From contig JAFUFO010000021.1 of NCBI GenBank assembly GCA_017469885.1, positions 1-64,000 of the forward strand: a stretch of 64,000 bases of DNA, given 5' to 3'. Each line of letters opens with the position of its first letter. Positions within the stretch are counted from its first letter, which is position 1. The notes beneath the pieces are model-generated. The model did not search any database. It saw only the letters and a list, made by a program, of their open reading frames with translations, and had not been told where the DNA came from. This DNA is from Solobacterium sp. (lineage in GTDB: Bacteria; Bacillota_I; Bacilli_A; Erysipelotrichales; Erysipelotrichaceae). Both the position numbers and the translations under genes were made by a program. This document shows, piece by piece, positions 11,589 to 13,759 of the stretch.

Positions 11589-11616
11589 TTGAGCGGTTTT
11601 TAACACACGGTATAAT
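11589..11616 (+). promoter_or_regulatory. Promoter of the chorismate mutase/radical SAM unit
   Basis: TTGAGC (11589-11594) and TATAAT (11611-11616) with 16-bp spacing lie 25 bp before the first start codon. Confidence 0.6.
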
Positions 11617-11641: not shown

Positions 11642-11938
11642 ATGAATCAGCTGGAAGAAAACCGCGCCGTGATCGGTGACGTGGATCAGGAAATGGCAAC
11701 GCTTTTTGTGCGCCGCTTTGAGGCGGTTCGCGGAATCGCACAGTATAAGATGGAACGGGGTCTGCCGGTGCTTGACCGCTCCCGGGAAGAGGCACTGATT
11801 GCCGAAAAGGAACAGTTTGTTCCGGAGGAACTCCGCCCGTATTTCCGGATGTGGTATGAAGGCATGATGAGCGCGTCCAGAGCGTATCAGAGTGACCTGA
11901 TTGCAAGTCATCAGAAGGGCTCCCAGACAGAGGAGTAA
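11642..11938 (+). CDS. Chorismate mutase type II (AroQ class)
   Basis: This 98-residue all-alpha protein has the length of a stand-alone AroQ mutase, which converts chorismate to prephenate. The first helix starts with the usual NQLEENRAVIGDVDQEMATL pattern and continues LFVRRFEAVRGIAQYK, supplying the family Arg and Lys. PVLDRSREEAL marks the second helix, with the conserved DxxRE. ATG 11642 follows CAGGAGG. It ends 8 bp before the radical SAM gene, so the two are almost certainly co-transcribed. No other aromatic-pathway gene is nearby, which is unusual. Confidence 0.88.
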   Translation: MNQLEENRAVIGDVDQEMATLFVRRFEAVRGIAQYKMERGLPVLDRSREEALIAEKEQFVPEELRPYFRMWYEGMMSASRAYQSDLIASHQKGSQTEE

Positions 11939-11946
11939 GACAGAAC

Positions 11947-13383
11947 ATGTCCCGTTACGTATTGAATGAGGGATATGCGCTGCGGGGATGGAAAGGTCTG
12001 CCGTTTGCACTGCGGTATCCCGATCCGCACAAAACCGAATTCTTTGATAAGGAAAGTTACCGTGTTGTCTATGCATTGGACGGTGCGCATGACATCGATG
12101 AAGCCGCATTGTCCCAGCGGCAGCGCAATCTTCTGCGTTATCTGATTGAACATGATGTGGCAGTTCCGGCGGAACATGGCGAACGGCTGGAGCCGTGGCA
12201 GGAATACAAAACCTTTCCCGGAATGTATAAAAGCAGCGTGCAGTGGTCGATCACCGGCCGTTGTAACTACAACTGCCGCCACTGCTTCATGAGCGCACCG
12301 GACTATAAGGGAGAGGACCTCTCCATGGAACAGTGCGTGCATATTCTTGATGAGCTTGCGGCAAACGGCATCGGCGTGATCAGCCTGACCGGCGGAGAAC
12401 CGCTGGTCAGCCCGCATTTTTACGGCATCCTGGATGAGATTCAGAAGCGGGGAATGCTGGTGGATGTGCTGTATTCCAACGGCGCGCCTGTCAATGACAC
12501 ACTGCTGGATGAACTGGAACGCCGGGGCATGCATCCGAATTTTCATATCAGTTTTGACGGCGTCGGCTGGCATGACTGGCTGCGCGGGGAAACAGGCGCG
12601 GAGGAAGAAGCGCTGCGTGCATTCAAACTGCTTCATGCGCGGGGCTTCCAGACGACCTCCTCGATGTGCCTGCACCGGCATAACATTGGCACACTGCGCG
12701 AAACCGTGAACCTGCTTGCCTCGCTTGGCCTTGTCCATCTCAAGATGAATGTCGCATCCCCGACCGGACGATGGAAAAATGAGACGGAACACTTTATCAC
12801 CCAGGATGAAGCGAATCAGGCGATCCTCGATTATATTCCGCAGTATATCGAAGACGGGATGCCGCTCTCGGTTCAGTTCTGCGGGCTGCTCGATTTTGAC
12901 AGGGAACACCGCCGAATTCAGATTCCCTCCCGGAAGTATTCCGGCATTGCAGGAGCGGAGAAACAGCTTGCCTGCGGGGCGGTCCGTGACAGTATGTATA
13001 TCAGCCCGAACGGCAGGATCCTTCCCTGTATGACCATGGGCGGAACTGCCGCCGATCCGCTGTTTGATTCCATCTTTGAAAAATCACTTGAGGAAATTCT
13101 GACGGAGTCTTATTACCGGGATACGTGCCTGTTAAAGATGGGTGCCTGTATTGAACACAACGAAAAATGCCGGGACTGTCAGTACCGGCTTGCCTGCGGC
13201 GCCGGCTGCCGTGCCTGCGCATGCGGCGAGACGGAGACGGATTATCTTGGCATTGATGAAGAAACGTGCCACTTTTTCCTTTCCGGCTGGTATGATAAAG
13301 CAAAAGAGGCGGTAACGCAGTACAGAGACTGCTTTCCGCCGGAAAGCAACGACGAACATAATTACTCAGCAGTACCCGATTAA
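11947..13383 (+). CDS. Radical SAM/SPASM peptide maturase
   Basis: This 478-residue protein has three parts. The N-terminal ~90 residues resemble a small winged-helix, peptide-recognition-like module. The radical SAM core carries CNYNCRHC (Cys106, 110, 113) for the SAM-binding 4Fe-4S cluster and SLTGGEPL for SAM contact. The C-terminal SPASM domain has LACGAV, ILPCMTMGG and the diagnostic Cys-x2-Cys-x5-Cys-x3-Cys in KCRDCQYRLACGAGC. SPASM enzymes of this build modify ribosomal peptides, for example by thioether or C-C crosslinks. The next gene, 10 bp on, encodes a Cys-rich peptide with a Gly-Gly leader, the likely substrate. The type of crosslink cannot be read from sequence. Confidence 0.92.
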   Translation: MSRYVLNEGYALRGWKGLPFALRYPDPHKTEFFDKESYRVVYALDGAHDIDEAALSQRQRNLLRYLIEHDVAVPAEHGERLEPWQEYKTFPGMYKSSVQWSITGRCNYNCRHCFMSAPDYKGEDLSMEQCVHILDELAANGIGVISLTGGEPLVSPHFYGILDEIQKRGMLVDVLYSNGAPVNDTLLDELERRGMHPNFHISFDGVGWHDWLRGETGAEEEALRAFKLLHARGFQTTSSMCLHRHNIGTLRETVNLLASLGLVHLKMNVASPTGRWKNETEHFITQDEANQAILDYIPQYIEDGMPLSVQFCGLLDFDREHRRIQIPSRKYSGIAGAEKQLACGAVRDSMYISPNGRILPCMTMGGTAADPLFDSIFEKSLEEILTESYYRDTCLLKMGACIEHNEKCRDCQYRLACGAGCRACACGETETDYLGIDEETCHFFLSGWYDKAKEAVTQYRDCFPPESNDEHNYSAVPD

Positions 13384-13393
13384 GGAGAACAGG

Positions 13394-13687
13394 ATGACAG
13401 ATCAGGAGAAGAAAGAAAAGAAGATATTTGCGCAGGAAATTTCTGACGAGGAAGCGGCGAAGGTTGCCGGCGGGGAATGGGACGACCAGTTCCAGTACTG
13501 CACGGAAAACCATTACCGCAGAATCTATCCGCGGGACGGTTCGGATGCCGGATTCCCGGACTGCGCGGCATCGGTTGAGGAAGGGAGCCACTGCGGCACC
13601 AACGATGCCTGCGGTCAGAGTGCGGTCGTATATACGGGCTTCCGTGTAGATTGCCTGATGCTTAACTGCACAAAGGCCTGGAAGTAA
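13394..13687 (+). CDS. Putative RiPP precursor: Gly-Gly leader and six-cysteine core (97 aa)
   Basis: The first 27 residues are charged and helical and end in EISDEEAAKVAGG, which fits a Nif11/double-glycine type leader. The core (28-97) is rich in Cys, Gly, Asp and Tyr, with six Cys at positions 36, 57, 67, 73, 87 and 92. ATG 13394 follows AAGGAGAACAGG directly after the radical SAM stop. The Cys spacing is wider than in the six-Cys-in-45 SCIFF peptides. No C39 peptidase or exporter is adjacent, so cleavage and export, if any, must be supplied elsewhere. Precursor status is inferred from leader, composition and context. Confidence 0.75.
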   Translation: MTDQEKKEKKIFAQEISDEEAAKVAGGEWDDQFQYCTENHYRRIYPRDGSDAGFPDCAASVEEGSHCGTNDACGQSAVVYTGFRVDCLMLNCTKAWK

Positions 13688-13726
13688 CGCGTCAGCGCGA
13701 TTGAAACTGATTTATCACAGAAGAGA

Positions 13727-13759
13727 GAACGGATCTGTTCAGGCAGGTTCGTTCTTTTT
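13727..13759 (+). terminator. Terminator of the radical SAM/peptide unit
   Basis: GAACGGATCTG faces CAGGTTCGTTC (wobbles tolerated) across TTCAGG, followed by TTTTT. Confidence 0.75.

Follow-up and report, generated by a model that had tools for sequence, protein, structure and literature searches.

The 64,000-nucleotide stretch of Solobacterium sp. DNA analysed here (assembly GCA_017469885.1, contig JAFUFO010000021.1; hereafter, the window) carries a gene for a radical SAM/SPASM enzyme followed by a gene for a Cys-rich precursor peptide, and we are highly confident that this locus specifies a radical SAM RiPP of one kind or another. We further consider it reasonably probable that the two genes form a RiPP unit whose product would carry a thioether between Cys67 and Asp71, be exported in trans by an NHLM-type transporter and form disulfides among its other Cys residues; for the Cys-Asp link in particular, the chances seem about even. 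The features of the locus are collected in Table 1.

Table 1 Positions of the locus features in the window
Feature	Positions	Strand	Basis or remarks
Sigma-70-like promoter, TTGAGC-16-TATAAT	11589..11616	+	10/12 matches; 5' of the chorismate mutase, radical SAM and peptide genes
Chorismate mutase type II gene, first of the transcription unit	11642..11938	+	PF01817, E 2.9e-15
Radical SAM/SPASM peptide maturase, 478 aa	11947..13383	+	PF04055, 1.8e-22; PF13186, 3.6e-8
N-terminal module, residues 1-92	11947..12222	+	Structural alignment to SuiB/SkfB
CNYNCRHC, residues 106-113 (CxxxCxxC of the SAM-binding [4Fe-4S] cluster)	12262..12285	+	Invariant in 65 relatives
SPASM domain, seven-Cys set	12973..13269	+	C343, C361, C408, C411, C417, C421, C441; two auxiliary clusters
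Precursor peptide, 97 aa, six Cys (36, 57, 67, 73, 87, 92)	13394..13687	+	Translation
Leader, residues 1-27, ending AAKVAGG	13394..13474	+	Sequence; family-wide conservation of G26 and G27
Conserved core motif, C57 to C73, CAASVEEGSHCGTNDAC	13562..13612	+	C57, C67, D71 and C73 invariant
Candidate cross-link site, Cys67-x3-Asp71	13592..13606	+	Suggested by an invariant CX3D, with PapB as precedent
Rho-independent terminator	13722..13759	+	17-bp stem, 4-nt loop, U-tract; fold -21.4 kcal/mol

The enzyme and its precursor are paired across gut bacteria

Relatives of the enzyme were sought in 84,980 species genomes, and 79 loci were obtained. Most of these lie in metagenome-assembled genomes, for many of which ruminant gut was the source, and they are distributed among Bacillota, Actinomycetota, Synergistota and Spirochaetota. 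The system was present in Erysipelotrichaceae, Lachnospiraceae and Oscillospiraceae from ruminant and other guts, and in the enzyme tree the window enzyme fell inside a clade of 20 rows with full support. Since 17 of the 23 distinct same-clade enzymes (at least 57% identity) had a homologous precursor gene within 1.5 kb, the pairing of enzyme and peptide is not due to chance; the near-identical loci L047, L049 and L050 are among the 23, so that these counts are not fully independent, and several of the remaining 6 enzymes lay at contig ends or had precursors elsewhere in the genome. Precursors of the window family were also found in 18 of the 19 other enzyme-bearing genomes and, in a set of 60 related genomes, in 7 of the 8 that encode the enzyme versus 1 of the 52 that do not (Fisher p 1.6e-7, uncorrected for kinship). 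No sulfatase, dehydrogenase or peptidase recurred beside the related enzymes, whose recurrent neighbours, apart from the precursors, were NHLM exporters and a sigma factor. The RiPP interpretation offered by a previous, sequence-only reading of this DNA is thus supported by both the local pairing and the co-occurrence in genomes: homologues of the peptide do not occur mostly without the enzyme, and the enzyme does not keep company with another conserved partner such as a sulfatase or a dehydrogenase, the two patterns which that reading had named as contrary to its proposal.

The genome to which the window belongs encodes, on another contig (C31), a paralogous enzyme (45% identity) together with two tandem precursors of 95 residues. 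In Lachnospiraceae LC2019 (locus L036), recorded as a strain and not as a metagenome assembly, exporter, enzyme and two precursors lie side by side. A genome of the same genus as the window (G001:C5, L151) keeps precursor and exporter, and no enzyme was detected in it at the cut-off used.

A Cys-x3-Asp motif is invariant in the precursor core

Translation of the window peptide agreed with the sequence-only reading in its 97 residues, its leader ending in AAKVAGG and its six Cys positions, and a C39-peptidase cleavage site is predicted after Gly27. Conservation was assessed in two alignments, of 20 and 23 precursors. Residues G26, G27, C36, C57, C67, D71, C73 and Y80 were common to the aligned precursors: C57, C67, D71 and C73 were invariant in both alignments, G26 was invariant in the first and over 90% conserved in the second, C57-x2-[ST] and Y80 were nearly invariant, and C92 was usually conserved while C87 was not. 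The family core follows the pattern C-x2-[ST]-(n)-C-x3-D-x(1,2)-C, a typical example being FPNCAATVEDGSWCxxNDACxxxAVxYxxMxxCxKAW[KRE]. When the motif was scanned with no requirement for the Asp, 39 of the 41 ORFs retrieved had this residue four positions after the second Cys. The two ORFs lacking it, as well as one of the 39, resembled noise from other reading frames, and practically all genuine precursors thus carry the Asp. The spacing between this Asp and the next Cys was 1 or 2 residues, the +4 position of the Asp being kept with either spacing. An optional extra Cys that creates a second CX3D in some six-Cys cores (CSISD, CTISD or CFITD; CX3N in the window) was given little weight as support, because roughly one five-Cys core in two, judged by eye, also has an Asp before that position.

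Many clade-A cores contain five conserved Cys after the leader, and this odd count would leave one Cys available for a linkage that is not a disulfide. In the AF2 model of the precursor (pLDDT 50) the leader is helical and the core disordered, and the model is too unreliable for a disulfide pattern to be drawn from it.

The comparison with NCBIfam and Pfam precursor models that the sequence-only reading had recommended was carried out, and no model covers the window peptide: nothing matched in NCBIfam at E values up to 1 or in Pfam, and the Nif11 leader model (TIGR03798) gave no match either. The SCIFF model TIGR03973 matched none of the 23 precursors at 0.01. The core strings CAATVE, CAASVE and CSATVE appeared in no relevant context in the open papers searched. 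Two of the 23 precursors matched NF033852 (fulvocin C-related; up to 4.7e-6), one of them being of the L052 type, which scored 21.8 bits, below the 35-bit cut-off; ten further precursors scanned against this model gave no match. The long-leader precursor L052:5467-5922 matches the fulvocin C-related model weakly over its whole length, a likeness that we regard as a weak lead only. Together with the Cys-rich core and the GG leader, this sub-threshold match of one precursor type would fit an unmodified, disulfide-bonded bacteriocin merely encoded beside an unrelated radical SAM gene, a reading that the recurrence of the pairing across families, the genome-level co-occurrence and the odd number of Cys in many cores make extremely improbable.

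A subclass of precursors with the motif CAATVEPGSxCxxxDxC (L055:3544-3963, L059, L150:4655-5269, L158:5170-5643 and L161:4741-5277) had, C-terminal to it, a CPxCG...CxxCG segment resembling a zinc ribbon, which would be unusual for a RiPP core.

Precursors are multiple, scattered and accompanied by NHLM exporters

The number of precursor matches per genome ranged from 1 to 11, and these were adjacent to the enzyme gene, in tandem or unlinked. One genome (G060) held seven precursors in tandem with variable segments, another (G066) eleven matches, of which two are fragmentary, spread over ten contigs, and two more (G010 and G032) had lone precursors on contigs 4.6 to 20 kb long whose examined part contains no enzyme gene. 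Scattered precursors in metagenome-assembled genomes could reflect binning errors, yet the pattern repeats, and we infer that a single enzyme handles all the precursors of a genome. The strong conservation of the core and of the C-terminal CxKAW, beyond what would be expected for a diversifying bacteriocin, could also indicate that the peptide is a substrate for a small redox cofactor or a signal of fixed structure, comparable to mycofactocin or PQQ. We consider this very unlikely, as several distinct precursors occur per genome, including the tandem seven with their variable segments, the leaders are of the GG type and the exporters of the NHLM type, and neither a dehydrogenase nor a peptidase partner is recurrent.

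After the precursors themselves, the commonest recurrent neighbour of the related enzymes was an ABC exporter, in several cases NHLM ABC1/ABC2. The sequence-only reading had noted that no protease or exporter adjoins the locus, which is correct locally but not genome-wide: contig C49 of the same genome groups the ABC1 and ABC2 genes with those of a small accessory membrane protein and of a sigma factor, and this ABC1 scored 911.9 bits against TIGR03796 (peptidase/ABC subunit; curated cut-off 853.3) and shared 60-62% identity with the exporters adjoining related enzymes. NHLM exporters were found in 17 of the 19 other enzyme genomes and in none of 14 controls, and NHLM-type exporters occurred in 7 of the 8 enzyme-bearing members of the set of 60 related genomes versus 4 of the 52 members without the enzyme. 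Although exporter and enzyme are unlinked in the window genome, these findings make export in trans likely.

A second NHLM-like exporter is encoded on contig C17 of the same genome (L164:5923-10415). Its peptidase region has AGENGA where that of the C49 protein has ALECGA, so that its catalytic Cys seems to have been lost, and its ABC2 partner is split into two overlapping frames. The sigma factor beside the C49 exporter (L163:6650-7186) has homologues with 37% identity (L033:3283-3822 and L048:3164-3703) next to the radical SAM gene of two relatives, and may control the scattered precursors.

Chorismate mutase is probably not part of the system

The start at 11,642 that the sequence-only reading had assigned to the locus is not that of the radical SAM gene but that of a chorismate mutase gene which it had left out, and which ends 8 bases before the radical SAM gene; the gap of ten bases that it had reported between the radical SAM and peptide genes was confirmed. 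It had also assigned the locus a promoter and a terminator of its own, and both were located (Table 1). The promoter call is weak on its own, since 2 such sites were seen in the region versus 1.6 expected by chance; the terminator, absent from the output of a generic scan, was identified by folding. Spacings of 8-10 bases between the three genes, a common promoter and the retention of chorismate mutase in the same place in a sister assembly (L110) would suit one functional operon tied to aromatic metabolism. Chorismate mutase was, however, found beside the enzyme only in the window and in that sister assembly and was absent from the recurrent neighbours of related enzymes, which led us to reject it as a functional partner; it probably does not belong to the RiPP system, and the aromatic operon is the least probable of the readings considered. 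The flanking genes, a YhhN-family gene and that of the glutamate synthase small subunit, are on the opposite strand. A mobile or phage origin was likewise discarded, no relatives having been found among plasmids, phages or viral contigs.

In the sister assembly (Solobacterium sp. RGIG568, L110:4001-4390), ~54 codons from the start of the enzyme gene run into the peptide gene across a short sequence common to both, and an in-frame stop interrupts the peptide. This fusion looks like a decayed allele but may also be an assembly chimera.

The enzyme and its predicted chemistry

As the sequence-only reading had claimed, the translated enzyme has an intact CxxxCxxC and the SPASM Cys-x2-Cys-x5-Cys-x3-Cys set, here extended to seven Cys with the spacing C343-x12-G-x4-C361, C408-x2-C411-x5-C417-x3-C421 and C441; in the 65 relatives, all of these were invariant except C343 (over 90%). 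The closest solved folds to the AF2 enzyme model (mean pLDDT 93.9) were SkfB (Z 26.1), anSMEcpe (26.0), SuiB (25.9) and CteB (24.3). SuiB aligned with model residues 3-445 and SkfB with residues 9-426, so the likeness to these two proteins includes the N-terminal module, at only 15-19% identity and with different substrates. Sequence profiles gave no RRE match in the enzyme; the structural alignments would fit an RRE, and the N-terminal module is a putative RRE-like leader-binding domain. Among the models listed, the enzyme passed no NCBIfam cut-off: it scored 53.4 bits against the PapB equivalog NF047865 (cut-off 340), 99.7 against the AhbD model, and 59.8, 54.9 and 73.7 against those of AlbA, SkfB and StsB (cut-offs 850, 300 and 625, respectively). 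Judged by these scores, the enzyme is not PapB, and other SPASM enzymes are at least as near to it as PapB is.

In the mechanism we propose, the N-terminal domain of the enzyme would bind the precursor leader, Cys67 would ligate an auxiliary cluster, and the 5'-deoxyadenosyl radical would promote attack on Asp71, yielding one or more thioethers in the core. The most likely bond would join Cys67 to the beta-carbon of Asp71, within a CX3D motif as in PapB acting on PapA, and Cys57, with its Thr/Ser at +3, would be a second possible site. The NHLM-type C39-peptidase/ABC exporter encoded on C49 would then cut after Gly26-Gly27 and secrete a core of ~70 residues, whose remaining Cys would form disulfides; the product may act as a bacteriocin or as a signal. 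In the relatives, where one enzyme would act on several precursors, the products would share a conserved stapled scaffold and differ in their N-terminal segment.

The same RiPP could instead be built by other chemistry, such as a sactipeptide-like C-alpha thioether, a link between Cys57 and the Thr/Ser at +3 or between Cys73 and Tyr80, or epimerisation, Asp71 serving only in folding or recognition; D71 could indeed be conserved for a reason other than a cross-link. This alternative, which we judge unlikely though not negligible, is favoured by the near invariance of C57-x2-[ST] and Y80, by the lack of PapB-specific similarity in the enzyme and by the products of SPASM relatives of similar fold, SkfB making a sactipeptide and SuiB a Lys-Trp link. 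Against it, no other non-Cys residue in the core is as constant as the +4 Asp, which is kept even where the next Cys shifts by one position, and we retain the Cys67-Asp71 thioether as the preferred assignment.

Relation to known systems

The nearest precedent for the predicted bond is PapB/PapA (freyrasin, Paenibacillus polymyxa), in which a SPASM radical SAM gene also adjoins that of a precursor with a Cys-X3-Asp core motif. PapB links Cys to the beta-carbon of Asp at Cys-X3-Asp, on a minimal substrate ending in CSANDA (PMC9413430, PMC10470005), and this local sequence of PapA resembles the CxxNDAC of the window family. It accepts Cys-X3-Asp/Glu, with leader-CSANDA as minimal substrate (PMC9413430); as to spacing, X3 was described as required (PMC8172795), whereas 0-6 residues were accepted in vitro (PMC9413430). 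PapA contains six CX3D motifs and the window core just one, a second being present only in some six-Cys forms, and the window system also differs in its longer core, its NHLM-type exporter and its many precursors per genome. The CX3D likeness may be convergent or coincidental, because the enzyme scores do not place PapB ahead of other SPASM enzymes.

The SCIFF/ranthipeptides of Clostridia (CteA/CteB) likewise combine a Cys-rich peptide with a SPASM enzyme of similar fold, but the window peptide is distinguished by its 70-residue core with C-x2-[ST]..C-x3-D-x-C and C-terminal CxKAW, and by the lack of a SCIFF model match. By analogy, the product might be assigned to the ranthipeptides. A rumen survey applied a TIGR03973 rule to ranthipeptides (PMC13289728), and such a rule would miss the window peptide, which has no match to that model. 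The Nif11/NHLP family (TIGR03798, TIGR03796/03797) has the same type of exporter; Nif11 leaders were above the cut-off in the precursors of sister enzymes at L058 and L066, whereas the window leader is short (27 residues). As for the scatter of precursors, and for this trait alone, the system resembles the prochlorosins and synechococsins (ProcM/SyncM), in which one promiscuous maturase serves many precursors dispersed over the genome (prochlorosins, PMC10783134). There the maturase is a LanM and it is the leader that is conserved and the core that varies, while in the window system a radical SAM enzyme would act on a conserved core preceded by a leader of variable length.

The predicted chemistry is already known; the libraries and open papers searched contain neither this lineage of enzyme nor the scaffold nor precursors distributed in this way. 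Tentatively, and with somewhat less than even confidence, we read the system as a widespread class of radical SAM RiPPs of gut bacteria, distributed in the manner of the prochlorosins and descended from the Nif11/NHLP lineage. In this class a lone maturase would install a single Cys-Asp thioether, by CX3D chemistry independent of PapB, in a conserved disulfide-rich scaffold borne by up to about eleven genome-scattered precursors. Whether CX3D thioether chemistry has a second origin among radical SAM lineages could be tested clearly and cheaply with this system, and a natural maturase with one enzyme, many substrates and a conserved scaffold would be of use for making stapled peptides.

Two further groups of peptides were observed near this family. 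In genomes G010 and G032, three peptides (L150:5270-5953, L159:625-960 and L160:4826-5188) had a leader close to that of the window and a different core, (D)CGKxAFxxGxCPKG, and probably represent a separate RiPP family with a common leader. Sister-clade enzymes at L064, L067, L074, L078 and L099 were followed by different GG-leader precursors, often in tandem, with the pattern CxCxxGGGGE...CACVxGGGGEY...RCxC.
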